The notes below the pieces were generated by a model. The model saw nothing but the letters and a program-made list of their open reading frames with translations. It was not told where the DNA came from and ran no database searches. The position numbers were made by a program, and so were the translations under genes. A stretch of DNA of 64,000 nt from Branchiostoma floridae (taxonomy: Eukaryota > Chordata > Leptocardii > Amphioxiformes > Branchiostomatidae): the NCBI RefSeq assembly GCF_000003815.2, contig NC_049987.1, positions 11,080,714 through 11,144,713 on the forward strand, written 5' to 3'. This document shows, piece by piece, positions 10,007 through 45,070 of the stretch (positions are counted from its first letter, which is position 1; every line of letters begins with the position of its first letter).

Positions 10007-13000
10007 ATGGCAACATCACTCGTTAGAGCAGCCCTGTTTTTGGTTACTGTAACATCCTTTGTTGCGGGGTACAGCGTTGAGCGGTTAGGTGAGTTGGCGT
10101 ATGTCTTTTGTGGAAAAGAGAACTCAATAGATGTTTTATGAGAAAGGTTTTTTTCTGTTTTGTACTGCCAATAGTTTAGTGAGAGTAAATCATGTATAGT
10201 TTGGAATGAATATGCATGACAAGTCCACGAAATATGAGTCATCGTACTCTCATCCGGGACAAGTTTCTTGCTAATCATTTTGTGGCGAGCAGAATCTTGT
10301 TCCCTTCACAAACTGTCAGACAGACTTATAGCGTGTTAGCATACAGCCTGCTAAGTTTGCGTTACGTGGCGTACAATTACTATGTTTCCCCTTATAAAAA
10401 CACATTGTTTTGCTTTTTCTGTCCTTTTCTGTCAGTAGCCGATAAGGGAATATGCTAGATATCAGCTGTTGTATATTAATACCAATAATTTTTACAGGAT
10501 ACTACAGGTCGAGCCTAATGATATGGTATAATAATGTTAATGACTAGGCCCCAAATTCAAGCAGATGTAGGGGTTTTCTTTTTTACTAGCTTGACAAAAG
10601 CTAGGGGGGAAACATTCTGCACTTTCACACAAAAATGCTGCATTATTAATCTTTTGTTTACGTTTGCTATTCTGAAAATTTAATGAATATCATATTCATA
10701 TTCGGATTGGCTAATTGCGAAGACATGTAACTCTTGTTTGGGTCTGCAGGATTTGATCCGTATATGTCTGACCTGAGCAACAGAACCCTGCGTGTGGTCA
10801 CTATCGCTGCGGATGGCTTCGTCTTGATATCAGATGTGGACAAAGACGGGAACAACGTCACGGGGAACGACAGATTTCAGGGTTAGTTCGTTCGACACTT
10901 GTAAGGCTGAAGGTATTTTTTACATATTCAGTACCCGTGCCTATCCATTATTTTGGGAAAGTACAGAATGCAAAATATCTTCAAGCAACAGCGGTTTTAT
11001 CTCATTTGAATGAAACTGATAGACAACGTAGATGCAAGTTAAGTTTGATCATGACACTAGTGTAAAGAACTTAATCTGTAACATATTTTCAACTATACCA
11101 CCATATACATGCTTACTGTACATGTGACTTTTTCATCTTTGTCTGATTCATCAATGCATACTATGTATGTACATGCATTAAAAAGAGTTTCAATGGTGAA
11201 CTGGGACCTTTTACAGGATTTTGTATGGACTTGTTCTCATGGATATCCACTGAACTTGGGTTCAAGTACGAGTACTATGAAGTCGAAGATGGAAATTTTG
11301 GTGTCTACGACTGGAAAACAAGGAAATGGGACGGGATGATTGGTGATGTGTTGTATGGGGTAAGACTATTATTAACATCAATTACCAACTATGCACAATC
11401 ATTAACATGTGTGGTTATATCTATTTATACAATACTAACAATTGCAATATGAAAACGGCAAAAATTATTAATGATTTGGTGTCATGACATAACATTGTGT
11501 GATTTCGGTAAAGCCTGGTATTCTGTACATTGTAATGTTATTGAATCTCCACAGAAAGCCGACATCGCTCTGGCCTCCTTTTTCATCACATCTGAAAGAC
11601 AAGCAGTTGGGGATTTCACTCTTCCATACTACAACAGCGGAAGGATATTTGCCATGAAGAGAACAGCATCAAGGTGCACATTCATGTTCATAACATTTTA
11701 AATACCTATACAATATATATGGTATGTCTTGATGTGCTAAAAAGAACACACATGAAATCTGATTCACTTCAGCAGAGATATTTTCGCTGGTATTAATCAG
11801 TAAACTCCAGGGTGATATACAGTAAAATCATATCTTATAACTTATAGGACATCAAGTGTCTGGGGCTTCATCGGACCATTTCAGAAGGAACTGTGGGCCA
11901 CCATCTTGTTGACGGCCTTGGCGGTAGGACTCTTTCAAGGTGTTGCCAATTTAGCAACAAAGGACATGTAAGACGTAACGCGTCTTTATTGATTCAGTTT
12001 AAAGTCTTGAGAAGCGTAAATGTCGACAAACCAAAATCGTCGCTGAATATTTGACTTTGATTAATGGGAAGGAAAGCTCTGTATTGTAAATGTAATATGG
12101 TAGGACAGAATTTCTACTTTACTTTATTTCTTGTCTGAGACAACATCCAGGACACTGTAACTGCTTTACTAAACATCTGACAGAGACGAAGAAAGTGACG
12201 CATCTGAAGACAAATATGAAGCTTATAAAGAGAGAGGTTTCTGGGAGGCTGTGTGGCAGTCATTCGTGGCTCTGGTTCAGCTGGGTCCGGAGTTCCTGCC
12301 GAGGTCATTATCAGGTATGACATTCATTCATTATTGATGAGTTTTGTTTCAGAGGAAGACGCTGTAACTGTGATCTTGTAATGTTGTTACTTTGTCGTCT
12401 TTTTAACTTCGCTTTTACCTAGGTCGCGTTTCTGCATTCTTCTGGGGAGTCGGCATCCTTGTGGCCATCTCTACTTACACCGCCAACCTGGCTGCTTTCC
12501 TGACAGTCAGGAACGTGGACAAGTCGATCACCTCTGCCGAGGATCTTCTTAGACAGGTACAATAGAACATCATGGCATTAGCTGTCTTAGAATGAGAATG
12601 GTTGATTGTAAAATCAATTTAAAAAAAGACGATAATAAGATATCATGTTTTGGTGTGTATTGCCAGGTAAGGTCCCTGTATAGAATATGTATGGTAATCC
12701 TTCTTGAACCTTTTTTTTTACATGATTAGACGGAAATCTCTTATGGTGCAATAAGAAACTATGCTACATGGGCGTCATTCAAGACAACAACAACAGAACC
12801 GTACAAATCACTGGGAGTCGTCATGCAGGCCAATGAAGAGTCGGTCATTGTGGATGACCTACAGGAGGGTCTGGACAAGATGCGTCGGGAGAAATATGCA
12901 CTGTTCTCGGACACCACTGAGCTGGACTACCACGTAAGACGCTTTCCAGATGCATTTAAGAGAAAGATTTAATGTTTTTATTATCATTTAAAGTACAAGA

Positions 13001-13674
13001 TTATTTACATAGCCCATTTGGCAGTGTTCTTGACTAATAAAACCTCATAAATAGAGAATAGTGTTAAGAGAATATCTCTGCACTTTAAAGGTCCGTTTTT
13101 CTCCTATTCTGCAGGCTAGCCGCAAACCCTGTGATCTACAGACCATCGGACGGCCGTTTTGGCAAACTGGAAATGGGATGTTTCTGCCTAAGAACTCCCA
13201 ATACACCGTGGAGTTCAACAGGGCCATTGTGGCTGCAAAAGAACGAGGTGTTTTTGAAGAGTTAGATACCAAATGGTGAGTACTGTTGTTGCAGATAGTA
13301 TAAAAGAGCAAATATGTGTCCCCAAGAAAATTATGTCTTGCTTCAACAAAACTGCTGACACGACGGGCCTTTCAGATAAAACAAATAGTTTTTTTTTTTG
13401 CCTAGCCTCTTCAGACCATTGGCTCATACTTCACATACAGAAGAGTGCAATATAACAAAGATATCATGTGGACTTACGTTCTTTTTCGTTTAGGATCAAA
13501 AGCAAAGAATGTTCCGGTACAGACCAGACTGAGTTAGAATCCTCTGTGATCGGACTACAGGACATGTTGGGTGTGTTCGTGCTGGTGTATGGGGGCATGG
13601 CGTTGGCTCTCGTCGTGCTGATTGGTGAATTCATCTACACATGCGCTCAAGATGTGAAGAAGTCAGATGCTCAC
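10007..13674 (+). CDS. iGluR gene 2, ATD-less, last exon in gap
   Basis: Short ligand-gated channel subunit. Exons: signal 10007-10088, A 10750-10881, B 11217-11359, C 11555-11673, D 11848-11967, E 12184-12314, F 12423-12556, G 12730-12933, H 13115-13275, I 13494-13674; all splice borders and phases agree (1407 nt, 469 aa so far). MATSLVRAALFLVTVTSFVAG is a signal peptide that leads straight into S1 (YMSDLSNRTLRVVTIAADGF), with no amino-terminal domain. Exon C keeps the ligand Arg (ITSERQ) but has Ser and Phe at the positions of GluA2 Pro478 and Thr480. D is TM1 (ELWATILLTALAVGLFQGVA), E the pore loop (LVQLGPEFLPRSLSG), F TM3 with TYTANLAAF, G and H S2 (FSDTTELDY), I TM4. The tail exon J is expected inside the gap at 13876-14075. 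Confidence 0.9.
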
Positions 13675-13875
13675 GTAAGATGATTGAAGTGATTATTGAC
13701 ATAATTTTTCACCTATAGGTGGAACTCAGTAATACGATTGTGACATTTAGTCGAATTCTTGTTTAATACATGCATGTCTTTTGTCCTTAAATGCATGTAC
13801 AGGATTAATGCATGTAATCCGTATCTATTATTCTCAACAATACCAAATCAAAACAAATTATTCCTTGCTCATTTT

Positions 13876-14075
13876 NNNNNNNNNNNNNNNNNNNNNNNNN
13901 NNNNNNNNNNNNNNNNNNNNNNNNNNNNNNNNNNNNNNNNNNNNNNNNNNNNNNNNNNNNNNNNNNNNNNNNNNNNNNNNNNNNNNNNNNNNNNNNNNNN
14001 NNNNNNNNNNNNNNNNNNNNNNNNNNNNNNNNNNNNNNNNNNNNNNNNNNNNNNNNNNNNNNNNNNNNNNNNNNN
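13876..14075. other. Assembly gap (200 N)
   Basis: Run of N starting where gene 3 has the acceptor of exon J (the left edge TTGCTCATTTT matches 34477-34488), so it probably hides the C-terminal exon of gene 2. The right edge (AAAGTCACAGCTATTAGATTTT) matches the 3' UTR region of the other copies. Confidence 0.95.
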
Positions 14076-14689
14076 CGCACAAAGTCACAGCTATTAGATT
14101 TTTGAGAAACTTTATCTGTCTTATTGACAAAAATGTTCGAAATACGAATGATTTATACACAACTGAGTTCTATGGCATCTAAACTCTGGGGTCTCTTTAA
14201 CCTGTGTGAACTTATCGTTTATATGTGACCAATTTATTCATGCAATGTGTGATATTATGTTGGGTTTGCTAAAAATTAAAACATATTTGAAAATATTTAC
14301 ATGTGAAGCAGGTGACAAGAGCAATAGCAAACATACAACTATGCGTACGCAATTATTTTAATGTACAGTGATGGACATGGCTGTTCATGAAGACGTAAAT
14401 GTTAACTAAATAAATAAAACCTCTTATACTTATACTTAGGTATAGGTTGTTGAGCGTAAAATTCGTATAGATTTGTAATAATGTCATGTAAGAATAAAAA
14501 CAAAGGATAGATATGCTTGCACTTGATGTCTTCGGTTGTGGTAAGTTACACTAGGCGGCGCAGATGTACCATCACCGAGAAGGGCGAATTTGTGTAACAA
14601 AGACCAAATATATGCTTTATTGACAACAGAAAGAACAGACTCTTATTAATCTATTCAGATAGACTTAACAGGTCAGGGGAATATCACTT

Positions 14690-15523: not shown

Positions 15524-17050
15524 CCTATATTTTGCCATCTTCATGATGGACATCACAGCGAATGATGGTTTTATTATGGATGGGGATGTTGAGTGAGAGC
15601 TCTGACTGCTGTATATTCAGGATGGTCTTTATCTCTCTGTACCAATCCGCCGGATTTTCTACCTTGAGATTTTGTACCCTGTCCCGGTAGAAAGACTTTC
15701 GCGCTTTTTTTACTTGTTACGCAGGTATTTCCACAAGGCAGTCTTGTTTTCTGAGAATGCCTTCTGCCGTCGGCGAATCATGTCCTTGATGTCTGGTTTT
15801 AACCACGGCTTGTCATTGTTGTGCATTGTTACCTGCTTGGTTGGGAAAAACTTGTTTATAGCATCTTCCATTGTTGTGTAAAAGGCCTCGGCCTTGCCGG
15901 CACAGGTAGGAGATGTGTACACTTCGTCCCAGGATTGAGAACATATCCATTGGCCAAAGACTCGGCGGTCGGAGTCGCGGATAGGTCTCACTGTCTTGCA
16001 CTTGGTAAAGTTCTCTTTCCTTGTTATCTGAGGTTCCCACAAAACCGTGCTGTGATCACTCAAACTCAAACCCAAAGGGCTACATACTTGGGGAATTTTG
16101 TAGTGTGTCTCTAGATTGGTGATAATCAGGTCTAACATAGCCTGTCCTCTCGTTGGTTCTTTGACGACCTGGGATAGGTTGTTTCCGTTGCAAAGTTGAC
16201 CTATATCCAGGTGGNNNNNNNNNNNNNNNNNNNNNNNNNNNNNNNNNNNNNNNNNNNNNNNNNNNNNNNNNNNNNNNNNNNNNNNNNNNNNNNNNNNNNN
16301 NNNNNNNNNNNNNNATCCCCCAACAGAATCATTCCAGCATCAGGGTTACGTGTCCGTATGTCGTCTGTGGCAGAGACGAGGTGTTCTAGCAGCAGTTCCT
16401 GGTGAGGTGAGGATGGCGGGTTGTAGACGGCACCCACGACAACTTGTGACACCCCTCTGGGCAGACGTCTCGGTCTTACTGACACCCACATACACTCCAG
16501 CTCAGGAGGAACAGTAATATCTGGTACCAGTCCAGCAGGTATGGAATTCCTTACGTATACGCCCCCCCCCCCCGCCTCTTCTTGTTGTGCGGCACTTGGA
16601 GAAGAGTGTATACCCTTCAATAAAAAGACAGGACTCAGGGGTGGTTGGGGAGAACCATGATTCAGCCACTACACCAATATCCACACGGTGGTCTGACAGG
16701 TAGCTTTGGTACTCATCCAGCTTGTTGACGAGCGATCTGGGGTTGCACAGGCAAACAGAGGGAGTTGTTGCTTGTGTGACACAAGTTGCGTCTTTCTTGG
16801 GCTATACTTCACAGATAACCCGACTGTGTGTCCTTCGCCATGTGTCATTGTTGTTGTTAAAAACGGGGATAATTCGGTTCGTTACTCGGGTAGTGATCTG
16901 ACGAGACAAGTTTCTGCCCCCTCGACATCCTCTCGCATGGAAAACTCTTTTGATACCACAATCAATGAGAGACCGCTTTACTGCATGTGTAAGTTTACTG
17001 TATGATCGGAGGGCTCGAAGAGTTGTCGACGAGTAGACCAGCTGTTTTAA
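15524..17050 (-). mobile_element. LINE fragment: endonuclease and linker of the polyprotein
   Basis: Minus-strand remnant of a non-LTR retrotransposon. Frames read LCNPRSLVNKLDEY (near 16750), VDIGVVAESWFSP (16684 downward), GGGVYVRNSIPAGL and GAVYNPPSSPHQELLLEHL (16620-16320), then SDHSTVLWEPQ and a basic post-endonuclease linker (16138-15710), ending about 15525. The order, with an N-terminal apurinic-type endonuclease (GVYV, YNPP, SDHS), is that of CR1/Jockey-type LINEs. The reverse transcriptase part is absent. Frameshifts, a poly-C tract near 16562-16573 and a 100-N gap (16215-16314) interrupt it. Upstream frames to about 17330 may be the element's 5' part. Confidence 0.8.
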
Positions 17051-18559: not shown

Positions 18560-18640
18560 GTATCAGTGTCACTGACGAAAGATAGTGGATGCTATCGTCT
18601 GGCCGTTTCCAAAATCATATCCAGTTGCTTGAGAAACTGT
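18560..18640. repeat. Dispersed repeat (CACTGACGAAAGATA family), copy 1
   Basis: Shares GTCACTGACGAAAGATA and AAAATCATATCCAGTTGCTT with 20430-20525 and 54940-55040. Probably a short retroposon 3' end; family not assigned. Confidence 0.6.
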
Positions 18641-19086: not shown

Positions 19087-20091
19087 TTAATCGTGTTTTG
19101 CCCATTTTCTTGAGATCATACATCCTAGCCAGGTCCCCTCTCTCAAGTCCGGTGTGCGGATGATACTTGCGATGGGGTTGACTGCCGAGTTCAAAACGAA
19201 CAGCACGACTAGTCCTCCGGGCCCAGTTACCATCAGACAAGTCTTTAGGTCCAAATGGCACGTTGACACGACTGCAATACGAGGAACGACCACCGCAATG
19301 AATGCCACTACAGCGTGTATCATCACCGTCTGTGCTCGGTGCACGTTCTTCTCGTACTCTCTCGCCCACTGCTTTTGCTCATTGCCTCTTCCCTGTCGCT
19401 TTCTGATGGCTCTGAACGTGATAATATTTGTGAGGAGGATGATCATAGCTAGGAAGACGTACATGGCCACCAAACCGTAAATGAATGCAATATGGAAAAG
19501 ACCGAAACAGCTTTCCGTCGGTGTATCCAGACAGTTCAAACCCATACTAGGCAAGGCAAAGAGCAGAGACAGAACGAGCCATGAAGAGACTATAGCCACG
19601 CCTGCATAGCTCTGTATGTCACTGGCTTGGGTGTAGAAGAGTATAGGGTACTTTAAGGCAACATAGCTGTTTATTGACATGAGGCATAGACCTGATACCG
19701 ACATTGCCTGGCTAAACATTAGGAACGTAAGACTGTACATGATCTCATGGCTTGAGCTCTGTTCTACCATGGCTATTGTGTACAGTAGAAGCTCCATGCC
19801 TGCTAGAAGATCGGACATAGCCAGATTCGCTGTGAAGAAGTACACAAGTTTGTTGATTGACCGTGTTCTGACGACTGAGCAGAGCACAATGGCGTTGTTG
19901 ATGAAAGACGCTGCTAGCAAACAGACGATGGCGCTCCCTGTCCCTAACATCACGCTGCCAACATGGGCAGAGCAGCGGGCTTCGGCCTTGTCAAAAGACA
20001 TGCTCATGATTTGCACGTTCCACAAAACACACTCAAGTAGACCACTGAACGATCTATTAGTAGCTGTAGTGATGGGGTGGTGAGCCGACAT
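19087..20091 (-). CDS. Class A (rhodopsin-like) GPCR, intronless, divergent
   Basis: 334 aa, single exon, seven hydrophobic segments. TM1 ends in a non-canonical FINNAIVL where GN is usual. TM2 has NLAMSDLLAG (canonical LAxxD). TM3 ends SINSYVALKYP, so the DRY motif is NSY. A Cys sits in the second extracellular loop (ESCFGLF). TM6 reads AFIAVVVPR, without the CWxP toggle. TM7 reads LNSAVNPIASIIRTPDLR: NP is kept but the NPxxY Tyr is lost. The TM2 and TM7 wording resembles the melanocortin/EDG/cannabinoid/adenosine branch, but the ligand cannot be named. The N-terminus has NRS as a possible glycosylation site; a second in-frame Met (MSMSFDK) could be the start instead. Loss of the G-protein switch motifs suggests atypical signalling or relaxed constraint. 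Confidence 0.85.
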   Translation of the reverse strand: MSAHHPITTATNRSFSGLLECVLWNVQIMSMSFDKAEARCSAHVGSVMLGTGSAIVCLLAASFINNAIVLCSVVRTRSINKLVYFFTANLAMSDLLAGMELLLYTIAMVEQSSSHEIMYSLTFLMFSQAMSVSGLCLMSINSYVALKYPILFYTQASDIQSYAGVAIVSSWLVLSLLFALPSMGLNCLDTPTESCFGLFHIAFIYGLVAMYVFLAMIILLTNIITFRAIRKRQGRGNEQKQWAREYEKNVHRAQTVMIHAVVAFIAVVVPRIAVVSTCHLDLKTCLMVTGPGGLVVLFVLNSAVNPIASIIRTPDLREGTWLGCMISRKWAKHD

Positions 20092-20429
20092 TTTTTTTCG
20101 TCAGTTGGAACGTCGCTGGTGATCCAAAGAAGCCAAAAGGCAAACTGTAGCTGTCCCTTGTGTGTCTGTGAGTTTGAATAAACAACAACAAAAAACATGA
20201 CATAGATTTTACAAGAATGAACCTTAAGTTGTTTGTCTCTTTTGACATTTAGAGAAGTATCCACAAACACATCAAATTTACCCAAACATATGTATGATTT
20301 CTGATATAACGAATGCAATCTAAATCAACGTACCGAAATTCTTCCTACATGAATTTTTCAGGTGAAGCTGAATATCATTTGGATAATGGAGGAATAGCGG
20401 ACACGGTCCAGACAAAGTGGATTCTAGAC

Positions 20430-29433: not shown

Positions 29434-29973
29434 GTGATGATATCAGATGTGGACAAAAACGGGGGAAATGTCACGGAGAATGACAGATTTCAGGGTTACT
29501 TCTTCGTTTAACACTTGTAAGTCAGAAGGTATTTTGTACACATTCAATACCCGTGTTTATCCATTATTGTGTCAGAGTACAGAATTTAAAAAATCTTTAA
29601 GTAAAAACGATTTCAACTAATTTAAATGAAGCTGAATGGACAACGTGGATGCACGTTAAGATTGATTATGACAGTGTCTGGTTTATAAACATACGCTGTA
29701 ACATACTTTCACATATAACACCATAGCCATGCTTGTTGTACATGTGGCTATTTTATTTGTTTCTGATTAACACATAGCATGCTATAGATGTACATGCATT
29801 AAAGTAGTTTCAATAATACATTGGGTCCTTCTACAGGGCTTTGTATGGACCTGTTCTCATGGATTTCCACTGAACTTGGCTTCAAGTACGAGTACTACGA
29901 AGTCGAAGACGGCCATTTCGGTATCTATGACTCGAAGACAGGGAAATGGAACGGGATGATTGCTGATGTGTTG

Positions 29974-30045
29974 TATGGGGTAAGACTATTATTATCATTA
30001 ATGACCATCAAAGCAAACTCATGAACAAGCATCGTCATATCTATG
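29974..30045. repeat. 72-bp direct repeat, left copy (LINE target duplication)
   Basis: The 72 bases from TATGGGGTAAGACTATTATT to CATCGTCATATCTATG are repeated without visible mismatch at 32205-32276. The unit includes the last bases of exon B and its 5' splice site. The two copies bracket the minus-strand LINE exactly, as a target-site duplication would. Confidence 0.85.
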
Positions 30046-32204
30046 TGTTATATATATATTTTTTTTATTTACTTAAAGTTCACCGCAAAACAAGGCTGTT
30101 GGAGCCACTTAGACGTTTTGGGTTACAATACTGTATAGTGAAGAAAGATACGTGTTAACCCTTGACTTAAACAGTTGTAGATTGTATCTCATGAGAAAGC
30201 AGGTCCGTGGAAGTTCATTCCATAGCGAAGTTGTTCTTGGAAAAAAGCTCTGAGCGTGGAACTTCCTCCTAGAAGGAGGATTGTGGAGGAAAAAAATGAT
30301 GATTTGCTTCCGTGGAAGTGGCTAAACGGGTTCTTGCAGTGAAGGTTCGTATTGGAGGCACAGATGAGTGAAGTTCTGCCGAGCATTTACCATGGAAGTA
30401 GCGATAGAATAGTGCTAGGCTAGCTACATCACGCCTTTGAGACAATGGTTGTAGAGTGGCGAACAAGTCGCTGCCAACAATGTTCTTTAACCGTTTTTGT
30501 ACCCTGTTGAGGCAGGTCAGGGAGCTCTGGGAAGCTCCAGCCCAAATGTGACAGCAGTATTCCATTTTTGGGCCTTATCTGACTCTTGTAAAGATAAAGA
30601 ATGGCGGAGGGGGTCAGATATTTCCTGGAACGGTACAAGGAGCCCACCATTTTCGCAGCTTCCTTGGCAACGGATTGAATGTAACAATAATTATTCGACT
30701 TAACCCTTTTCAGACGGGGGGGGGGGGCTTTTGAGGCCTGCGCCAACTTCGATGTCCTATAACGCCAGAACGCCTTCTGCTAAAGCCACCAAATTTAGTG
30801 ATTTTTTGAAAATATTGTTGGCAACAATTTTACGAAGTTTGACGAATTTCCATTTTTTGTGTTGCCATAGCAACCGTTTGCTGACAGGCAGTTTTGCCAA
30901 AAATCACTATTTTTGGTTCTAACAATGTATTTTACACATTTATTTGCTATATTACTGCTATTTTGTTACATTAATAAAATCTTATATTATTAAGCATATC
31001 TTTCATAATTATATATGCCTAAATTATGCTAATTTGATGACGTCATCAGCCCATAAACCAAGATGGCGGACCGTATGGCAAGATCAAGAATAACAAGCTA
31101 ATCATCCCTTAAAATTTGTAACTACCTGGTATTTTTCATCAAAAACCTTATAAATGAATAAATGAATGAATTTAGTCTATTTCAATTGCCCTTTGTGATT
31201 ATTTGTTGCCAAAAAAGTACTTTTAAAAATTCAAGGTGGTGGATATAATATGGCGTAGCCTAACTCGTATCTTAGATGTGCATGACGTCATTTTATGACG
31301 TCATTATGACATAATCGATGTTGCTATTGGCAATACAAGTCGTAATAAACATTATTGTTCTATTATCTGCAATTGTTGTGACATTTTTGTAGTATAACTT
31401 GAAGTTTTCTGAGAATACCTATTTTTCATGGGTCTGGCCAATATAATCAAATTAATGACGTCATAATTACGTCATCTTACGTCAACGTAACGTCAAACGT
31501 CAAATACTCGTCAGATATTATGTCGATATCATGTCCTGATAATTTGGTGGCCTTACGGCACGTCGTTCAAGAATTAGAGGACTTAGAATTGAAGGGCCTC
31601 AAAAGCCCCCCCCCCCCGGTCCAGGGACGACCAAAAAAGCCCGGTATGAATAGGGTTAAGATCAGGTGTAAATTTTAGGCCCAAGAGTCGCTCAAAGCAA
31701 GGGGCTTCTTTAAGTAAAGTCCAACTCATTTGGACCGGTGGAAGGTTCAGGTCAGATCTCTTATGATGAAACGAAAGAAGGTTTGTTTTTGAAGGGTTGA
31801 AGGTCACAAGCCACTTTTTACCCCATAGAACCGTATGATCAAGGTCAGCAGAGAGATTAGCTGCAAGGGAGTGGTCATTACATCTCCTGGATGTGTGGCC
31901 ATATACTGAGGTGTTATCAGCATAAATGTCGACAAATGATCTGAGTATATGATCAGGCAGATCGTTTATGTAGATTAAAAATAGTGTTGGACCGAGGATT
32001 GATCCTTGCGGTACTCCAGCATTGATGCTATGACATTCTGACGCTTGGCCGTTTATAACGACCTTCAGAGATCTGCAGGACAAGAAAGATTTTATTGTTG
32101 CTAGAACCTTGCCGCAGATACCATAGCTGGCAAGTTTATGCAGCAAACCTCTATGCCATACCTTGTCAAAGGCTTTTGATATATCTAAAGCAACTGCTCT
32201 GATA
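30046..32204 (-). mobile_element. 5'-truncated CR1/Jockey-like LINE, RT domain
   Basis: On the minus strand it opens inside reverse transcriptase (VALDISKAFDKVWHRGLL, motif with the first catalytic Asp), then AGVPQGSILGPTLFLIYIND and IYADNTSVYG, where the usual ADDT catalytic pair reads ADNT. It continues LLGLKFTPDL, is interrupted by a MITE, and resumes with KEAAKMVGSLYRSR and MEYCCHIWAGAS...LNRVQKRL. The 3' end is AT-rich (TATATATATTTTTTTTA on the plus strand near 30050). It is dead: 5'-truncated, catalytic residue changed, frameshifted and interrupted. It is flanked by the 72-bp duplication. Confidence 0.88.
30700..31659. mobile_element. piggyBac-like MITE nested in the LINE
   Basis: TTAACCCTTTTCAGACGGGG at the left and CCGGTATGAATAGGGTTAA at the right, with TTAA at both edges. 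The LINE reading frame stops at the left edge and resumes at the right. Internal TGACGTCA and CAAGATGGCGGAC motifs match the copy at 1689-2599. Confidence 0.85.
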
Positions 32205-32276
32205 TATGGGGTAAGACTATTATTATCATTAATGACCATCAAAGCAAACTCATGAACAAGCATCGTCATATCTATG
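32205..32276. repeat. 72-bp direct repeat, right copy
   Basis: Second copy of 29974-30045. It gives the intron a decoy 5' splice site (TATGGGG|TAAGA context) about 200 bp upstream of exon C. Confidence 0.85.
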
Positions 32277-34585
32277 AATATGCATAGATGGGAGTGATCA
32301 TCGCAACATGAAAACGGCGAGAACCTTTCATGGAGTGACATTATATCATTTTTGTAGGGTCGGTATATTCTGCACATTGTAATGTGCTCGGCTTGATTCT
32401 CCACAGAAAACAGACGTGGCTCTGGCCTCCTTTTTCATCACATCTGCAAGACAAGCAGTTGGGGATTTCACTCTTCCATACTACGACAGCGGAATGATGT
32501 TTGCTATGAAGAAAACAGCATCAAGGTGTGCTATGTTCAGAACATTCTAAATGCCTGTTTATGGTTAATCTTGATGGGCATACGCATTAAATTGATATAT
32601 GAAATCTGCACTCAAGTGGAGATATTTTCGACTGACAATGATACTACCAAATCATATTTCATAACTTATAGGACTTCAAATACCTGGGGCTTCATCGGCC
32701 CATTTCAGATGGAATTGTGGGCCACCATCTTGTTAACGGCCTTGGCGGTGGGATTCTTTCAAGGTGTTGCCAATTTAGCAACAAAGGACTTATTATCTGA
32801 CAGAGACAATGAGAGTGATGCACCTGAGGACAAAGAAGAAGACAAAGAGACTGGTTTCTGGGAGGCTGTGTGGCAGTCATTTCTGGCTCTGGTTCAGCTG
32901 GGTCCGGAGTTCCTGCCGAGGTCATTCTCAGGTATCGCATTCATAGATTATAGATGAGTTCTGTTTCAGATCAAGACGCTATAAACTCGAACTTGTACGA
33001 AACTATCAGATTTTGTGATATTATGTTAATTCGTCGTCTATTTAACCTTACTTTCTCTTAGGTCGTGTTTCTGCCTTCTTCTGGGGAATCGGCATCCTTG
33101 TGGCCATCTCTACTTACACCGCCAACCTGGCTGCTTTCCTGACCGTCAGGAACGTGGGCAAGTCCATCACTTCTGCTAAGGAGCTCCTTGGTCAGGTACG
33201 ACAGAACACCATTAGCTGCCTAGGAATGATAAAGGTTCATTGTAAAATTAATAAAAAAAGACGTTAATAAGATGTCATATTTTGGTGTATATTGCCGGCC
33301 AGTTACGGTCCCAAATCATGCATGGCAATCCTTCTTGAACCTTTTTTTTTCCTGTTTAGATGGAAATCTCGTATGGTACAATAAGAAACTATGCTTCATG
33401 GGAGTCATTCAAGACAACAACAATTGAACCGTACAAATCACTGGGAGTCTTCATGCAGGCCAATGAAGAGTCGGTCATTGTGGATACCTTCAGGAAGGTC
33501 TAAACAAGATGCGTCAGGAGAAATATGCGCTGTTCACGGACAGCACTGAACTGGACTACCACGTGAGACACTTTTCAGATGCGTTTAAAAAAAGGCCCAA
33601 TGATTTTATTATTATTCTAAGTAAATGGTCCTTTATATCACCCATTCGTCAGTGTTCTTGACATAAACTTTATAAAGAAATATTATAGATGTTGTTAAGA
33701 GAATGTAAACTGCACTTAAGAGGTCCGATTTTCTCCTATTCTGAAGGCTAGCCGCAAACCCTGTGATATACAGACCATCGGACGGCCGCTTTGGCAAACT
33801 GGAACCGGGATGTTTCTGCCTAAGTACTCTAAATACACCGTGGAGTTCAACGGGGCCATTGTGACTGCAAAAGAACGGGGTGTTGTCGACGAGTTAGTTG
33901 CCAAATGGTGAGTACTTTCAATACAGATAGTATAAAATAACAAATATCTGTCTCCAAGAGAAGATAGCTTGCCTCAATAAAACTACTGATGCAATGGGCG
34001 TTACAGACTTACGTTCTTTACCATTTAGGATCATAAGCAAGGAATGTTCCGGCACAGACCAGACTGTGTTGGAATCCTCTGTGATCGGACTACAGGACAT
34101 GTTGGGTGTGTTCGTGCTGGTATATGGGGGCATGGCGTTGGCTCTCGTCGTGCTGATTGCTGAATTCATCCACTCCTGTAACCAAGATGTGAAGAAGTCG
34201 GATGCTCACGTAAGATGATAACATAATGTTCCACTTTTAGGTCGAACTCAGAGATACGATTGTGACATGTAGTCGAATTCTTGTTCAATACATGCATGGC
34301 CTTTTATCTTTAATTGCATATAATTTATAGTACGGGCATGACCATGCAATAAAGATTATTATGTATGGGTTCGGAAAACACTATGAAATGATTGCGTATT
34401 GTCGTTTACTTAGTCTTTGTCATCATATACTGCGTATCTATCATTCTTAATAATACCAGATGAAAACAATATATTTGTGCTCATTTTTGCAGCCAAAAAC
34501 GCTGACGCAAGCAGCAAGGACACGTCTGAAGAGATTGTTCTCTGTAAGACGTCAGAGGGGAGCAGCAACAAGAACAGAGCTTTAA

Positions 34586-35582: not shown

Positions 35583-38500
35583 ATGGCAACATCACTCGTT
35601 AGAGCAGCCCTGTTTTGGGTTACTGCTGCTTCCTTTGTTACGGGGGACAGAGGTGATCGGTTAGGTGAGTTAGCTATAGTATACATCTTTTGAGGTAAAG
35701 AGTACTCAAAAGAATGTTATGGAGGAATGGGAATGTACTTGTATTTATTGCCAATATTTTTGTGCACATATGCGAAGTGAGGATATGTGGTTTGTAATGA
35801 ATATACATGTCAACTCCATGAAATATTAATCGTACTTTCATCCAGAACTAAATAACTATATGGGACCAATCAGCATCTTGGTCCCTGCACAAACTGTCAA
35901 ACGGACATGTTATCACATATATCTTATTGATATGTATGCCATGTTGATAGTTTGATAAATTTCATATTCATTAATAATGACAATGGCAATGACAGTGAAG
36001 TTGATTGTATATCCATGCTCCTTTTGGTCTAAATGCAGTATGTTCGGTATAATAATGGTAGTAATAGAAAAGCTATACATGCCATCTATAGTCTGTATAA
36101 TGCTTCTTCTATGTAACCGACTTGCTACCTACGCAGCCATATGCTAGAAGCTATTGTTTGGGTCTGTAGGAGTTGATCCGTACGTGTCTGGCTTGAACAA
36201 CCGGACCCTGCGTGTGGTTACACTCGATGCAAATGGCTTCGTCTTGATATCAGATGTGGACAAAGACGGGAACAACGTCACGGGGAACGACAGATTCCAG
36301 GGTTAGTTCAACATTTGTACATCAGAGGGTAATTTAGACATTTTCAGTACATGTGCTTATACATTAGTACGTAAAAGTGTAAAATTCAAATTAACAACAA
36401 CAGTTTTATCTCATATGAATAATGCTGAGGGACAACGTGCGAGTTTTATTATGACAGTATATGGCACCATATCTGTAACATATACTTTCGTCTATACCAC
36501 CGTACCCATGCTTATTATGCATGTGACTACATTCCTTTGTCTCTAGTCTTATTCACAAATTGCATGCTACTGGTGTATATATGGTGTATATCTAAATATT
36601 TCCCATTGTGTCTTAAGGATTTTGTATGGACCTGTTCTCATGGATATCCACTGAACTTGGATTCAAGTACGAGTACTATGAAGTTGAAGATGGACAGTTT
36701 GGAATCTACAACTCAAAAACTGGGAAATGGAACGGAATGATTGGTGACGTATTGTCTGGAGTAAGACTATTTTTTCTTCTTTGTTTGTTTATTTGTTTGT
36801 GCCTGTATTCATTGTTGTCACAGATTACCATCTACAGCAACGCAAGACTAGGTATTTTTATTTTAAATCTTTGCGTATGAGAGTATGGGAACGACTAAAA
36901 CCTTCGACAATTTGATGACACGACATGCCCTTGATATTTCTTTTTGTATTTTACTCATTTGTAATGCGCTTCAACCCCTAAAGAAAGCAGACATCGCTCT
37001 GGCGACTTTCTCCATCACATCTGATAGACAGATAGTTGGAGATTTCACTCAACCGTACTACGACAACGGAATGACGTTTGCTATGAAGAAGGTGGCATCA
37101 AGGTAAGTTCGTACCTTGCGAAATGCTTGTGTTAGACATATCTTGTCAGGCTGAAAAGTAAAAAAAAAATAATGATTTGATATATAGAATCTGATCCCCA
37201 TTTGCTTCGCCAGATATATTTTCCTCTCTTATTGAGCATTAAGATTAAATTTATTGACCGGAATAGTATACTACAAAATTATTTTTTGTGTGATTTTAGA
37301 ACTTCAAACACTTGGGGCTTCATCGGCCCATTTCAGATGGAACTGTGGGCCACCATCTTGTTGACGGCCTTGGCGGTGGGGCTCTTTCAAGGCGTTGCCA
37401 ACCAAGCAACAAAAGAAATGTAAGTCGCATCTTTATATTCCTTCAGCTTTGGGAAATTTATTGTCGACTAATCCAAACAATTAAAAATGGTTGCTGATGG
37501 ACAAATATTCGAAATAGATCCGTATTTTACCTTCGCTCATCAGAGGACAAGCACCGTCGTCTAAAAATGTACTATTATATATAGGACAACATTTCTGTTT
37601 GACCTCGTTTTCTTGTTTGAGACAACATCCAAGGATCTACAACTGCTTTTAAATTATTAAAACATCTGACAGAGACAATGACGGTGATTCGCGTGAAAAC
37701 AAAGATGACGACAAGGAGACAGGTTTCTGGGAAGCTGTGTGGCAGTCATTCGTGGCTCTGGTTCAGCTGGGTCCGGAGTTCTTGCCAAGATCATTCTCGG
37801 GTATGACGTTCAAAAATCATTGATGCATTTTGCTTCATTAAAAGACACTATTACTGTTAATTATAACTCTGTACCTGGTTTAAGAAAATAGGCCTTCTGA
37901 TGTTGCTTTGTCGTCTATTCGACCTCACTTTCGTCTAGGTCGTATTTCTGCATTCTTCTGGGGAGTCGGCGTCCTTGTGGCCATCTCTACTTACACCGCC
38001 AACCTGGCTGCTTTCCTGACCGTCAGAAATGTGGACAACACAATCACTTCTGCTGAGGATCTCCTTGGACAGGTATGCTAAAAACACAATCAAAAGCCTA
38101 TGAATGATAATGGGCCATTGTAAATGTGACGCATTGGGTGCATATTGCCGTACGTCTCGTAATCATGTATTATCTTGTATCTTTGTTACAATTTTAGACG
38201 GAAATTTCATACGGCACAATAAGAACCTACGCGACGTGGGTGTCCTTCAAGACCACTACAACCGAACCGTACCAGTCACTAGGAGTCGTCATGCAGGCCA
38301 ATGAAGAGTCGGTGATTGTGGATGACCTACAGGAGGGTCTGGACAAGATGCGTACGGAGAAATATGCGCTGTTTGCGGATAGCGCTGAACTGGACTACCA
38401 CGTGAGATGATTTTAAAAGAACGTTTAACCCTATTATATCTTGACCAGGCTATTGGGGGTCTTCCTGGAATTGGGGTGGGGGGCTGTTTTAGCAAAACGT

Positions 38501-39911
38501 TGGCAAATAAGTATTATTAACATTCAAGTTTGTCTAGTCTGATGCCAATGACGACAGCACTGACACCAATATGACGACATATAATGACGTCATATGTCGG
38601 CCATCTTGAATTGACAATCTTAAATTTTCTAGAGTACGTTTTTTTTTCGACACATTCTCGTAGAATATGATAATATCGTAGTCCTAACACACGTTGTTCG
38701 GTAGTTCTAGGACGTCAAGGGCACTTTTATCCTAAATAGGGTTCAATGTTTGTATTTTTATTTTCTGTATATGGTTACTGGAGTTTCACAGTCCATCCGG
38801 CAGTTGTTCTTGACGTTGCAAATCTCACAAATTAGAGGAAAGTGTAAAATAAGGCAAGTTGTAGGCAGGTTCTACAATATTTGTTTTTTTGCTTATGTCA
38901 TGTTGATACGATTTTTTGTTCCCAAATTCTGCAGGCTAGCCGTCAACCCTGTGATCTCCAGACGATCGGACGGCTGTTCTGGCAGACAGGTTACGGGATG
39001 TTCCTGCCTAAGAATTCAAAATACACCGTGGAGTTCAACAGGTTCATTGTGGCTGCAAAAGAACGAGGTGTATTCGACGAATTGGACGCCAAGTGGTGTG
39101 TGCAGTTGTTAAATCAAGATTATACAAAAGAGCTACATTTGTCACAAAGAGAACGTGTCGTGCTTTAACAAAGCTAATGGTGCGATCTTTAATTGCCTTT
39201 TCTTGTCTATTCACATTTGATTTTTTATTTATCTCTAATTAAGTAAATAGAGGAACGCTATTCATCAAATCTTAAGAAGACATTCTTCACTTTTTTTTAT
39301 TTAGGATCAAAAGCCAAGAGTGTTCCCATAAGGTCAAGACTGTGTTGGAATCCTCTGTGATCGGACTACAGGACATGTTGGGTGTGTTCGTACTGGTGTA
39401 TGGGGGCATGGCGTTGGCTCTCATCGTGCTGATTGGTGAATTCATCTACACATGTACCCAAGACGTAAAGAAATCGGATGCTCAAGATCAAGTAAGATTA
39501 TTTTATTTTCAACATAAATTTCCACCTCTAGATAGAATGTTGGAACTTTAAAGCAAGCAGTCTTATATTCTTCCAAAGGACAGAGTCTATTCGGCGTAAA
39601 ATGTATTAACCCAGAATTAGGTCTTCTTAGCTTTGATCCACTCCCGAAAGTGAGCAACAAGGATTCCAGACTACGAATGTCTGTAAATAGTTCAAAGATG
39701 ATGTAAATGGTTTTATGTATGTGTTGCTTCCTAATTTATGCATGTCTATTCTTCTCAATTACTAGATAATTACTCACTTACTTTTTTGTCATTGACCCAG
39801 CCGAAGACTCTTACGGAAGCAGCAAAGACACGTCTAAAGAGGATGTTCTGTCGTAAGAAGTCCAAGGGAAACAGCAACAAGAACATTAACATTTTCCCGG
39901 GCCTTGCTTAA
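35583..39911 (+). CDS. iGluR gene 4, complete ATD-less receptor, 506 aa
   Basis: Exons: 35583-35664, A 36170-36301, B 36618-36760, C 36984-37102, D 37300-37419, E 37673-37800, F 37939-38072, G 38198-38401, H 38935-39095, I 39305-39491, J 39801-39911; lengths sum to 1521 nt, open throughout. Residues 1-27 are a signal peptide (MATSLVRAALFWVTAASFVTG). S1 is 28-159, with the ligand Arg in ITSDRQ and Ser at the GluA2 Thr480 site. TM1 is in 165-198, then an acidic linker and pore loop 199-241 (Gln at the Q/R site, Glu at +4), TM3 242-270 with TYTANLAAF, S2 about 287-425 (FADSAELDY), TM4 in 430-460, basic tail 471-506. Exons B and C use AAG acceptors. A short MITE sits in the G-H intron. At about half the normal iGluR length the layout resembles vertebrate kainate-binding proteins. 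This is the best reference for the short group. Confidence 0.93.
38425..38746. mobile_element. Short TTAA MITE copy in gene 4 intron
   Basis: Begins TTAACCCTATTATATCTTGACC and ends CCTAAATAGGGTTCAA, with AATGACGTCATATGTCGGCC inside. It is an internally deleted member of the 1689-2599 family. Confidence 0.65.
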
Positions 39912-40614
39912 TTAGACACATGTCCAACTTATGATATAACTTTATCATTCAGAATATGTATGTCTTGCAAATGAAAGTCACAGCTATGAACTTTTGGGGA
40001 AACTTTATCTGCCCCGTGAACAGAATTGCACCGTATGGTATGTGTGCAAGATATGAATGTATAGGTGAACATGCATGTTCACGATGATGGATTGAGTTCT
40101 ATGCGTTCAAACTGCTACGTCACTTTGTCACCAGATAGTTTATGATCTTTCTGTCCGGGAAATGTGTGATCTACTGCCAGCAATGCTTAAAATTACAACA
40201 TATCTGAAACATTTACAAGTGAAGCATGTGAAAGGAGCGAAAAAAAATTCAACCCGACGTTCGTAAAGTCAATATATCTAGTATGTGCATGGTTGTATAT
40301 GCAGACGCATTGACTAAAGAATTGAAACTACAATCTATGAATGTCTTATGGCTGGTGGTTGGTGAAGCGAAAGAAGCGTATAGGTTGTTAAAAGAGTCAT
40401 GTTAGACTAAAAAGAAAGGCTGGGCATACTTATACTTGATGTCAGAGGCATGGTAAGTTCCACTAGGTGGCGCAGTTACACCGTCACCGACAAGGGTTAT
40501 CGTTGTTACAAAGACAGCTGTAAGGAAGTGATGCTTTGTTGACAACATGAAGAACAAGCTTTCGTATTTATTCAGATTGATATAACAGGTGACTATCACA
40601 TTTTCAAGATAGCA
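39912..40614. other. Gene 4 3' flank
   Basis: Shared 3' flank (GATTGAGTTCTATGCGTTC, TTGTCACCAGATAGTTTATGA) and CACTAGGTGGCGCAGTTACA, which recurs near 8500 and 14550. No gene. Confidence 0.55.
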
Positions 40615-40750
40615 ACCCGGTGACCACACCCTAAGGTTTGATCCAATTACACCGGGAAAGACTCCTGCGTGCTCTTTTCAATGAGTGTAAATGTTTTTAA
40701 CGTGCTAGAGGTGTGGCAGTCCAAACGGGACCTCCGTCCAACGCCCTATC
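40615..40750 (-). mobile_element. SINE 3' fragment
   Basis: On the minus strand: GATAGGGCGTTGGACGGAGG, TCCCGTTTGGACTGCCAC and CCCGGTGTAATTGGATC, the SINE body seen at 14690 and 27386. Confidence 0.55.
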
Positions 40751-40778
40751 GTGACAGCTATATCTTAGCTGACAGTAA

Positions 40779-41257
40779 GGCCACGTTGATTTGATTATAT
40801 GGATGACATCCACGCTCGCACCAATTTTCGGCCATTTCCACACACAAATGCAAAAAAAGTTTTCGACCACACAATAAATTGTGCAAATCAGCTGTAAAAT
40901 GAGCACATATATTCCGTAGATTGAAAAAAAAGTATCAGAAAACAGATAACTATTGCCATATATAGAATGCCAAAATGAATCTAATTTCAAAGAATAAGAT
41001 GTGAAAGGACGGAAAGAAAAAAAATCTATTGTTGGTTGGGGGGGGGGGGTACCAGTACAGAAAATTCAGGTCCAGAGGATCATGGTATACGTTACCATAC
41101 TATGTGTGTTCAGTCCTATGTTCAACCTTCCTGGCCACTTTGATTTCATATACTGAAGGCAACTTTTTTTTGGCCAAACTTTTTTTTTTATTCGCTCGCT
41201 CGCATCAGTTTTGGAGTTCCCGGAGGATGTCATCCATATAATCAAATCAACATGGCC
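40779..41257. mobile_element. Harbinger-like MITE with TAA target duplication
   Basis: 33-bp terminal inverted repeats starting GGCCACGTTGATTTGATTAT (one mismatch against the right end, where C is T), flanked on both sides by TAA (40776-40778, 41258-41260). No transposase. Internal frames are not convincing. Confidence 0.85.
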
Positions 41258-41614
41258 TAACGTAGATAGATCTAACATCTGAAAGAAGTTCAATTTCTAC
41301 CAGAAATTGAATGGCAGGACAAGACAAAACTAAGAGATATCCTGAAATCATCAACAACAAAAAATGAGGATGTACAAATTATCTCAAGATTGTTCCATAC
41401 ATCTCAAGACATGGTACTTTTTCATAACAACTTTCAAAATATCTTGAGATTTTCTAAAACATCTCAAGATTTAAAGGATGGGCATGACACATTACCAACA
41501 ACTCCCTTATTCTGCAAGCCACATTATCGTTAAAATATTGATATGAGTCTTTGCCATAACAGCAGCTCTGAACAGCAGACAATGTCAAGGTCGACGTCGA
41601 TATAATTGTTTTAC

Positions 41615-41710
41615 CTGACTCCAAGGGTCTTTGGAGTGATGTGCATCATGAAAAATTCAAGCAAATTTACACTGATCATCGACTTCATTGGTCTTTACAA
41701 GGTCGGTACC
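41615..41710 (+). promoter_or_regulatory. Conserved upstream block of gene 5
   Basis: Same block as before genes 2 and 4, about 190-280 bp before the start codon. ATG at 41648 opens MKNSSKFTLIIDF, 36 codons. Conservation continues downstream (CAAATAAGTGTCGCAA, TTTTTAGTGGTCGGTG), and this part also survives in the ghost copy. Confidence 0.5.
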
Positions 41711-41897
41711 CATTTATTATCAAATAAGTGTCGCAACTTTAATGGAATTATAGTGTAATTTGCTTATTGGAAGTGTGTGATTAATGGGCATTTTTGGAAA
41801 GTAGAGAAATTGAGAAATCAACACATTGCTTGTTACGATTTTTAGTGGTCGGTGGTTGATGATCATGGTCATTATTACGGAACATCGTGGAACTGAT

Positions 41898-44800
41898 ATG
41901 GCATCTTTATTTGTTAGAGCAGCTCTTTTCGTGCTTACTGCAGCATCCTTTGTTACGGCGGAAAGACTTGAGCAGTGTGGTGAGTTGGCATACGTCTTTT
42001 AATAGTATAGAAAAGCTCACTCAAAAGTTGTTTTACTTACTGTCGATAGTTCAGTGTACATTTTATTGTATGTAGGATACAATGAATATGCCTCTCAGGA
42101 CCACAAAATGTGGTGATGGTACTCCCATCCAGAATATACAGTCATTGGGCAAAAATACAGCTGTACCCTACCGCCTGTCATACCATACGTAATGTATGAT
42201 TCTACGTTTGCTCTTTGGATGGTTTGGATTTGATAATCAATTCCTACTTACGCAAAATCTAACTCTTCCTTTTGTCTGCAGGAGTTGATCCGTACGTGTC
42301 TGACTTGAGCAACCGCACCCTGCGTGTGGTCACTATCGCGGCGGATGGCTTCGTACTGATATCAGATGTGGACAAAGACGGGAATAACGTCACGGGGAAC
42401 GACAGATTTCAAGGCAAGTTAGTTTCACAGCTGTACATTATTAATTTGGACACATTCACTGCATGGGCATGTGAATACATGAATATGAGACATCTTCGAA
42501 CAACAAGGCTTCTAGAATGAAGCTAATGGTCGACGTAGATGTAGGTAATTATAACCGTATGCGGGCAGTATAGTATATGACAGTAGATCTGTAGCATATT
42601 TTCATCTATACCACCATAGCCTTGCTTATTATACGGACCTTTTGTTTCGTATCTGATTTACAAAATACACGCCATGGATGTACTTACAATAAATTTTCAA
42701 TAATATATTGGGGGCCTTCTACAGGATTTTGTATGGACTTGTTCTCATGGATTTCCACTGAACTTGGGTTCAAGTACGAGTACTATGAAGTCGAAGACGG
42801 ACAGTTCGGTATCTACGACTCAAAAACTGGGAAATGGAACGGGATGATTGGCGATGTATTGTATGGGGTAAGACTATTGCTATAATTATAGATACCCATC
42901 CTCTACGTCTTATGACTAGACATCGCTAAATCTGGGCGTGTAAGGTAAACATGATTGCAACATGTAATCTGCAAGAATTGGTGTCAAGACAACTCCTTGT
43001 AAAATCGTCTGCGTTTTGCTCATTACCTCCATAAATATTAGATTTTCACTAGCATTTGCGTTTGTGTGTGTGCGTGTGCGAACAGAGGACATTAACAGAT
43101 ACCAAACATGCAAATGAGGAACTAGTTTTCATAATCAATCAAATGATAAATGATTAGATGTTTCATTTGTTTCATTTGTTAAGCTATTCAATGATGAACA
43201 GCACCATGCAGAAATCGTGTAAATGTGCATTCCATTTGCATCACATCTACATAGCCAAACTTTCAATATGTTTCCTACACAGAAAGCAGACATCGTTATG
43301 GCACCTCTTTTCATCACATCAGAGAGACAGAAAGTTGGGGATTTCACTCTTCCATACTACGACAACGGAATGGTGTTTGCTATAAAGAAAACAGCATCAA
43401 GGTGCCATATTTCTCATCGTTCTAAGAATAAATATCTGGCATATCTTGACCGGCTAATAAATGTATTGATGTATGAAATCTGATCCACACTCTGTGATAT
43501 TGATCAATTAGGTCATGTTTATAAACCTACTCCTGGCTGATATACAAAACCATATTTCACACCTTCTAGGACTTCAAATACCTGGGGCTTTATCAGTCCA
43601 TTTCAGAAAGAACTATGGGCTACCATCTTGTTGACGGCCTTGGCGGTGGGACTCTTTCAAGGCATTGCGAATTTAGCAACAAAAGACATGTAAGAAGAAA
43701 CTTTATTCATTTAACATAAAGTCTTAAGCCATTGATGTCGACTAATCTAAACAATTTATATTTCAATTTGCAACTGGTTGCTGACGGGAAAATGTTTATT
43801 ATGTATTCGTATTGTTACCTTTGCTGATTATGAGACAAGCACTGTTTTTTAACAGTAATGCCGTAAGACAACATTTTCGTTTGACTCGTTTTTTGTCTGA
43901 GGTAACAAGACAATGCTTTACTAAACTTCTGACAGAGGCAATGAAGGTGACGTACCTGATCATGATGTCAGAGATGAGGACAAAGAGACAGGTTTCTGGG
44001 AAGCTGTGTGGCAGTCATTCGTGGCTCTGGTTCAGCTGGGTCCGGAGTTCCTGCCTGCTTCATTATCAGGTATGATATTGCTTAATAGTGGATACGTTTT
44101 GCTTCATACAGTGAAAATACTGTTACTGTAAACTAAACTGACTGTAAACCATTTATCTAGTAATGAAATGTTGGTTTGACGTCTTTTCAACCTCACTTTT
44201 GTCTAGGCCGCATTTCTGCCTTTTTCTGGGGAATCGGCATACTTGTGGCCATCTCTACTTACACCGCCAACCTGGCTGCTTTCCTGACTGTCAAGAACAT
44301 GGACAACTCGATCAATTCTGCGGAGGACCTCCTTGGACAGGTATGATTGATACAATAACAAGACCGGCCTATAATCATTGTTGCTATGTTTTGAGTGCAT
44401 ACAGCCATAACACTACAAATCATTTTATGGTATCTATCTTGATCTTTACCCACATTTTTAGACNNNNNNNNNNNNNNNNNNNNNNNNNNNNNNNNNNNNN
44501 NNNNNNNNNNNNNNNNNNNNNNNNNNNNNNNNNNNNNNNNNNNNNNNNNNNNNNNNNNNNNNNGTTCAGGATCAAAAGCCAGGAGTGTTCGGGAACAGAC
44601 CAGACTGTGTTGGAATCCTCTGTGATCGGACTACAGGACATGTTGGGTGTGTTCGTGCTGGTGTATGGGGGCATGGCGTTGGCTCTCATCGTGCTGATTG
44701 GTGAATTCATCTACACATGCGCTCAAGATGCAAAGAAACCGGATACCGATGTGAGAGGATAGGAGTTATAATACAGTGTTTTTTCGTCATGAATATTTCA

Positions 44801-45070
44801 ATTTCTTTACCCTTAGATTGTACATGGAATTTGAAACTTAGTGTTCTGATTATGACATGCCGTCATATCATTGTAAAGTTTAGGGATTCCTTGTCGTGGA
44901 CATCATCGGACGGTATTCTTAATATATAAGTGCTGGACATCTAATCATGGATAACCAAAGTCTATTTTCCATCTTTGTTTCAGCCAAAGACACTCGTGGA
45001 AGCAGTCAAGACACGCCTGAAGAGTATGTTATCTTGTAGGAAGAGAAGCAGCGACAATAATCAAATCTAG
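41898..45070 (+). CDS. iGluR gene 5, ATD-less, S2 exons in gap
   Basis: Exons: signal 41898-41979, A 42282-42413, B 42725-42867, C 43283-43401, D 43570-43689, E 43936-44069, F 44207-44340, G starts 44462 and runs into a gap, H wholly missing, I 44570-44750, J 44984-45070 (stop TAG). MASLFVRAALFVLTAASFVTA is the signal peptide and S1 follows at once. Exon C reads MAPLFITSERQ: Pro at the GluA2 Pro478 site is kept, Phe stands at Thr480, and Arg is kept. The pore exon ends LPASLSG, as in gene 1. TM1, TM3 and TM4 match the family. Exon A ends CAAG|GCAAGT, a GC-AG intron. The tail is short (28 residues, Arg/Lys/Ser-rich). All visible frames are open, and the gap hides about 365 coding bases plus introns. 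Confidence 0.87.
44464..44563. other. Assembly gap (100 N, nominal size)
   Basis: In the paralogs this interval holds exon G, exon H and two introns (more than 1 kb), so the 100-N length is a placeholder. The right edge sits five bases before the exon I acceptor. Confidence 0.97.

Follow-up and report, generated by a model that had tools for sequence, protein, structure and literature searches.

How has a tandem group of ionotropic glutamate receptor (iGluR) genes come to be without the amino-terminal domain (ATD), and what kind of receptor may such genes encode? The question is raised by a stretch of 64,000 nucleotides from the amphioxus Branchiostoma floridae (contig NC_049987.1, designated C9 here; C9:11080714-11144713; hereafter the window), which was examined together with 20 kb on each side, 104 kb in total, within a searched assembly of 513.4 Mb in 431 contigs. 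Seven iGluR genes were found on the same strand across about 80 kb, an array larger than the window and than a preliminary description of it, made from its letters alone, had indicated. Genes 1, 2, 4 and 5 are devoid of an ATD and their frames are open wherever sequenced, gene 3 is broken, and genes 6 and 7 bear an ATD. Judged from the DNA, the ATD-less genes probably form a lineage-specific offshoot of the amphioxus receptors that have a tyrosine at the position of GluA2 residue 653 (Tyr653).

The array and its gene models

Exons were located through their homology to those of gene 2, and the models had to respect splice sites and phase. The ATD-less genes follow a common plan, in which an 82-nt signal exon ending in phase 1 is followed by exon A (132 nt, phase 1 to phase 1), by exons B-I, encoding S1, M1, the pore loop, M3, S2 and M4, and by a C-terminal exon J, which was located in genes 1, 3, 4 and 5. 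The parts of the array, in window coordinates, are the following:

-3406 to -3325 (upstream of the window; C9:11077307 onward), + strand: gene 1 signal exon
-2894 to -192 (upstream of the window), + strand: gene 1 exons A-D
1-2999, + strand: 3' part of gene 1, ATD-less (exons E-I and the C-terminal exon from 2796, with the stop codon inside 2796-2999)
10007-10088, + strand: gene 2 signal-peptide exon, 82 nt, phase 1 end, GT donor
10750-13674, + strand: gene 2 exons A-I (S1, M1, pore loop, M3, S2, M4)
10750-10881, 11217-11359, 11555-11673, 11848-11967 and 12184-12314, + strand: gene 2 exons A-E
12423-12556, 12730-12933, 13115-13275 and 13494-13674, + strand: gene 2 exons F-I
29434-34585, + strand: gene 3, pseudogene of the ATD-less group
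35583-35664, + strand: gene 4 signal-peptide exon, 82 nt, phase 1 end, GT donor
36170-39911, + strand: gene 4 exons A-J, complete ATD-less subunit (exon A 36170-36301)
41898-41979, + strand: gene 5 signal-peptide exon, 82 nt, phase 1 end, GT donor
42282-45070, + strand: gene 5 exons A-F, I and J (exon A 42282-42413)
52112-52193, + strand: gene 6 signal-peptide exon, 82 nt, phase 1 end
54147-57867, + strand: gene 6 ATD exons T1-T8 (ANF_receptor, 1.6e-53, residues 39-422)
54147-54299, 54615-54673, 55140-55347 and 55666-55803, + strand: gene 6 exons T1-T4
56070-56269, 56877-57044, 57342-57509 and 57763-57867, + strand: gene 6 exons T5-T8
58018-63522, + strand: gene 6 exons A-J (S1, channel, S2, M4, tail)
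65346-76545, + strand: gene 7, ATD-bearing, just beyond the window

Gene 1, a fourth ATD-less gene, starts 3.4 kb before the window and lies mostly outside it. No last exon was found for gene 2, where it probably falls inside the N gap at 13876-14075, and no exons G and H were found for gene 5, where the N gap at 44464-44563 occupies their expected place. The exon A donor of gene 5 is GC (GCAAGT, 42413-42419), compared with GT in the other modelled copies. Immediately before exon T1 of gene 6 lies a run of some 24 degenerate 20-nt units (53622-54107), with no aligned counterpart in gene 7.

Absence of the amino-terminal domain

The preliminary description had proposed that genes 2, 4 and 5 join an 82-nt phase-1 signal exon to the first S1 exon across short introns (0.3-0.7 kb) free of ATD-like frames, and the models agree with it on both counts: exon A is entered in phase 1 in all three genes, and the introns before it measure 661, 505 and 302 nt, contain no N run and yielded no detectable ATD exon. 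The 506-amino-acid protein then given as the complete product of gene 4 was also recovered, as a model open from start to stop with exon I ending at 39491, while the length of gene 6, then put at 913 amino acids, becomes 936 in the present model.

A profile of the gene 6 and gene 7 ATDs, compared with six-frame open reading frames (at least 10 amino acids long and free of N) over the 72 kb located 5' of gene 6, gave no match at E<=5, and the same search recovered 8/8 ATD exons of gene 6 as a positive control, with a worst E value of 3.9e-10. In a tblastn search of the 104 kb with pieces of the gene 6 ATD, matches at E<0.01 fell exclusively in genes 6 and 7; five weaker ones (E 0.07-0.61) were short and all located outside the introns between signal exon and exon A. 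Genome-wide, the gene 6 ATD produced 59 matches at E<=0.001, none of them within the stretch of genes 1-5 (C9:11077307-11132825). The Pfam scan covered three of the six non-pseudogenes: genes 1 and 4 match Lig_chan-Glu_bd (PF10613), Lig_chan (PF00060) and SBP_bac_3 (PF00497) above cut-off and show no ANF_receptor, whereas gene 6 matches the same three families plus ANF_receptor (1.6e-53). The LIVBP-like domain typical of the amino terminus of animal iGluRs was not encountered in genes 1, 2, 4 and 5; the ATD of gene 7 was recognized by homology.

Could ATD exons exist and be missing through assembly gaps or collapse? N runs do occur in the window (4743-5099, 13876-14075, 16215-16314 and 44464-44563), and it is at such gaps that genes 2 and 5 are short of exons. 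Yet none of the four ATD-less genes has an N run between signal exon and exon A, the same join recurs in four separate copies, and no modelled exon is missing from the ATD-bearing genes 6 and 7, so that this explanation is considered highly improbable.

Origin of the join

The signal exons of the ATD-less genes share 40-47 of 82 positions with their counterparts in genes 6 and 7, compared with at most 35 of 82 for the other candidates of the form ATG, 82 nt, GT. When the 267 such candidates from the two strands of the 104 kb are compared, each ATD-less signal exon finds its best matches in the other five signal exons. Observed scores were reached by shuffled signal peptides in 13 of 20000 trials for gene 1, 12 of 20000 for gene 5 and 0 of 20000 for genes 2 and 4, and a hydrophobic stretch is seen in the hydropathy of the signal exon peptide in all six genes. 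The signal exons of the two groups are homologous throughout.

The last residues encoded by the signal exon of genes 6 and 7 are TTVRFG, after which the ATD follows without a break; given what is generally known of the fold, we take the 3' end of this exon to be where the first ATD strand begins. This start would persist, in altered form, at the 3' end of the signal exon in the short genes. In genes 6 and 7, exon A extends further 5' than in the ATD-less genes and contains an in-phase AG at the place of the acceptor of the latter; an exon beginning from this AG in gene 6 would start at 58097. A deletion reaching from intron 1 into exon A, or exon loss after a change in splicing, may have removed the ATD exons, and the AG in the linker between ATD and S1, or a neighbouring one, may have become the acceptor for the phase-1 signal exon. 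A deletion followed by use of an in-phase AG would give the in-frame phase-1 join that is observed.

Phylogeny and direction of the loss

Outside the array, the closest paralogs among the matches listed are located on contigs C7 (1183997-1194769) and C4 (2226589-2238407), and in each of them seven ATD matches follow one another, in the expected order, before the S1 exons. The identity of these pieces to gene 6 is 44-80% for the C7 paralog (68-80% in five of the seven) and 55-69% for the seven pieces of the C4 paralog. Since both paralogs carry an ATD, its presence is the older state; a placozoan Epsilon receptor has likewise been described with an N-terminal domain (NTD; PMC12226733). The opposite direction, an ancestral absence with genes 6 and 7 gaining the ATD by fusion, would agree with these two genes being a minority in the array, but has to be reconciled with homologous ATD pieces in two paralogs elsewhere and with an ATD in gene 6 that continues from the same signal exon, in the same phase, as in the ATD-less genes; we regard it as exceedingly improbable.

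Thirty iGluR loci were considered as outgroups, and one, the C7 paralog (L040), was close enough for rooting; the other 29, whose best exon pieces are at most 59% identical, were left unused. In the rooted tree (257 aligned codons from exons A-F, with the outgroup represented by a partial exon A to exon F), genes 1-5 group as a single clade with an ultrafast bootstrap of 100% in both model schemes used, and a separate clade, also at 100%, unites genes 6 and 7. Gene 3 was included in the rooted tree alone, with exons B-F. In a tree built without the outgroup, the ATD-less genes are again firmly separated (100) from genes 6 and 7.

One loss with subsequent tandem duplication explains the data most simply, because genes 1-5 form one clade and the signal exons are homologous. 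Loss of the ATD once in an ancestral copy, which would then have multiplied in tandem, fits the data best and is held to be likely. The clustered ATD-less subgroup of the preliminary description is borne out in that the rooted tree gives it one origin and that ATD-bearing paralogs are found both in the array and elsewhere in the genome. Of the "lineage-specific receptor class" proposed there, the lineage-specific subgroup stands, and the word class is too strong for genes whose identity with genes 6 and 7 is 78-82% across exons A-I, the part that both kinds have in common.

Conservation and selection

The array genes belong to the iGluR superfamily as far as their predicted proteins indicate, with an S1/S2 ligand-binding domain (LBD), a Lig_chan pore and the gating motif STYTANLAAF, present in 5/5 aligned genes (1, 2, 4, 6 and 7) and also in genes 3 and 5. 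The match of gene 2 to GluA2 extends over residues 33-465 (E about 2e-77), and the array genes are 34-35% identical to GluA2 over S1-M4. The ATD-less genes, which are 84-87% alike among themselves, retain the signal exon, S1, M1, the pore loop, M3, S2, M4 and a basic tail. Over exons A-I, the ratio of nonsynonymous to synonymous substitution (dN/dS) is 0.158-0.277 for the 15 pairs of six genes, which is evidence of purifying selection and hence of working proteins. Gene 5 entered all comparisons without exons G and H and was excluded from the residue alignment.

These data bear on the possibility that the ATD-less genes are in decay. The damage to gene 3 is plain: its exon A is truncated at the 5' end, the D-E intron has been lost, exon G contains a frame break, and no signal exon is detectable. 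Moreover, the published genes Grie5-8, which also have Tyr653, are weakly expressed, Grie5 being the sole subunit not found expressed (Ramos-Vicente et al., 2018; PMC6307864). Against this, genes 1 and 4 have uninterrupted frames from start to stop, every exon found in genes 2 and 5 is open, dN/dS among the four is 0.18-0.28, and the gating motif and pore residues are intact, which makes decay of the whole group quite unlikely. As an observation on gene 3, a reverse transcriptase frame (RVT_1, 1.1e-22; 31586-32434, - strand) lies mostly within its B-C intron and is likely a retroelement insertion.

Ligand-pocket and pore residues

Genes 1, 2, 4, 6 and 7 were aligned with GluA2, positions 485, 586, 590, 653 and 705 being numbered as in PMC6307864. 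Arg485, an aspartate at 705, Gln586 (the Q/R site) and Glu590 are each found in 5/5 genes. A tyrosine occupies position 653 in all five non-pseudogenes in which exon G is sequenced, and in pseudogene 3 as well. Residues 478-480, in a numbering that we take to be that of GluA2, vary among the copies, position 480 being phenylalanine in genes 1 and 2 and serine in genes 4, 6 and 7. In three relatives on contig C15 (L034-L036) the alignments place an asparagine at 653. Two of them, L035 and L036 (C15:6547200-6550400 and 6568300-6571500), are oppositely oriented iGluR genes that have the pore-loop motif GPEFLPRS in common with the array and 40-41% identity to it over M1-M3, with Asn, not Tyr, at 653.

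Tyr653, overlooked in the preliminary description, bears more directly on the ligand than does the loss of the ATD. It has been proposed to block amino-acid binding and is reported for Branchiostoma proteins only, namely for five proteins of unpredicted ligand and, in the section on expression, for Grie5-8 and Grif1-2; in a model of GluE7 it fills the pocket, and GluE7 supplied with a rat signal peptide forms homotetramers that gave no current with six amino acids (PMC6307864). Since the ATD-bearing genes 6 and 7 also have Tyr653, this residue is older than the loss of the ATD. Because of it, the ATD-less proteins are unlikely, as homomers, to be plain glutamate or glycine receptors, and a need for partner subunits or a response to something else appears more likely.

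The pore residues also bear on the subfamily. Gln586 together with an acidic residue at 590 is found in most non-ctenophore Epsilon receptors, and no Phi member is reported with Gln586 (PMC6307864), so that the presence of Gln586 and Glu590 in 5/5 genes argues against membership in Phi and is consistent with Epsilon. An insertion in the M1-M2 loop, particularly distinct in ctenophores, is described for Epsilon in the same paper; in our alignment the loop is no longer than that of GluA2. Judged by residues only, the ATD-less offshoot is possibly close to the published GluE5-8.

Weighing the reading

Several points weigh against an ATD-less offshoot of Tyr653 receptors that arose by one loss. 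The splicing of all the array genes is predicted from DNA, and the assembly gives genes 2 and 5 only in part. The signal peptides were judged by hydropathy only, and the shuffle support is weaker for those of genes 1 and 5. A deletion scar was sought by comparing the introns between signal exon and exon A with gene 6 and gene 7 sequence, and no significant match was obtained (best E 0.55). The rooted tree rests on its 257 codons and a partial outgroup, its branches inside the ATD-less clade have moderate support (62-84), and the inner branches of that group reach 38 and 52 in the tree without outgroup, from which gene 3 was absent. Finally, equating the array genes with GluE5-8 relies on few residues, and the published proteins may themselves carry ATDs, given that GluE7 was modelled on full-length GluA2 (PMC6307864).

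Other features of the window

Between genes 2 and 3, a 336-amino-acid frame on the - strand (19090-20097) matches rhodopsin-type G protein-coupled receptors (PF00001, 3.8e-17) and is apparently intronless. Tandem repeats with units of 75 nt and 121-123 nt are located between genes 1 and 2 (5146-7660).

Proposed function

The short signal peptide would direct the proteins into the secretory pathway, leaving S1 and S2 outside the cell. The subunits may then tetramerise through the LBD and the membrane segments and gate a cation pore, with STYTANLAAF as gating motif, a glutamine at the Q/R site and a glutamate at position 590. The different assembly rules suggested in the preliminary description are a conjecture, and AMPA subunits deprived of their NTD do reach the surface and conduct (PMC5370185). 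Homomers would show little or no response to glutamate or glycine owing to Tyr653, and co-assembly with the ATD-bearing neighbours is possible.

The preliminary description called the receptors possibly chemosensory, and on that view the ATD-less proteins could be tuning subunits that use these neighbours as co-receptors, in the style of the insect ionotropic receptors (IRs). The tandem array, the variation at residues 478-480 and the adjoining ATD-bearing genes would suit this idea, insect tuning IRs are without typical ATDs (PMC7882480), and chemoreception has been raised for divergent receptors by Ramos-Vicente et al. (PMC6307864). Against it, Arg485 and the acidic residue at 705 are conserved in the array, unlike in many IRs. 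Also against it, the review on tuning IRs presents IRs as a protostome family (PMC7882480), and the published amphioxus Epsilon genes are enriched in the nerve cord (PMC6307864). On balance, we consider a chemosensory role unlikely. Rather unlikely too is a full chordate parallel to the IRs, in which Tyr653 would first have compromised amino-acid binding, and loss of the ATD and radiation into tuning-type subunits needing gene 6 or 7 would have followed; if this were true, the array would encode both halves of a heteromeric receptor for a non-classical ligand.

As an ATD-less offshoot of Tyr653 receptors, the array amounts to a natural ATD-deletion experiment, with close subunits with and without the domain side by side and the gating motif kept in all. 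Because the two kinds of copy are 78-82% identical over their common part, one can ask what the ATD contributes to assembly and targeting in a receptor that has departed from the usual amino-acid ligand. The array would also add a separate loss of the ATD in a non-vertebrate chordate to those of vertebrates and insects.

Comparison with known receptors

Vertebrate kainate-binding proteins are short iGluR subunits that consist of an LBD and a channel, have no ATD and are kin of ATD-bearing subunits. In all of this the ATD-less array genes resemble them; they differ in that kainate-binding proteins belong to the vertebrate kainate-receptor lineage, while the array genes have 34-35% identity to GluA2.

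The insect tuning IRs have no typical ATD and occur as expanded sets beside ATD-bearing co-receptors, to which the ATD-less array genes with their ATD-bearing neighbours are similar, but they are protostome proteins with 10-70% identity (PMC7882480), compared with 84-87% among the ATD-less copies, which moreover keep Arg485. In view of this conserved arginine and of the match to GluA2, the array genes are unlikely to belong to the IR8a/IR25a clade. GluA2 engineered to be without its NTD is also similar, having an LBD, a channel and a tail and forming surface channels for which the NTD is not needed, although it is a laboratory construct of an AMPA subunit (PMC5370185).

Within amphioxus, GluE5-8 (Grie5-8) are like the array genes in Tyr653, in Gln586 with an acidic residue at 590 and in the residues that anchor the amino acid; wild-type GluE1 and GluE7 are predicted to be without a signal peptide, and the main text of that paper has no mention of ATD, NTD, amino terminal domain or N-terminal domain (Ramos-Vicente et al., 2018; PMC6307864). 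We speculate that a short phase-1 signal exon is easily missed in annotation. A literature search with amphioxus terms, which reached few subscription journals, gave no report of ATD-less amphioxus iGluRs among the records listed. The array is a lineage-specific variant of a known theme, the ATD-less iGluR, and one that comes with ATD-bearing sister genes for comparison.

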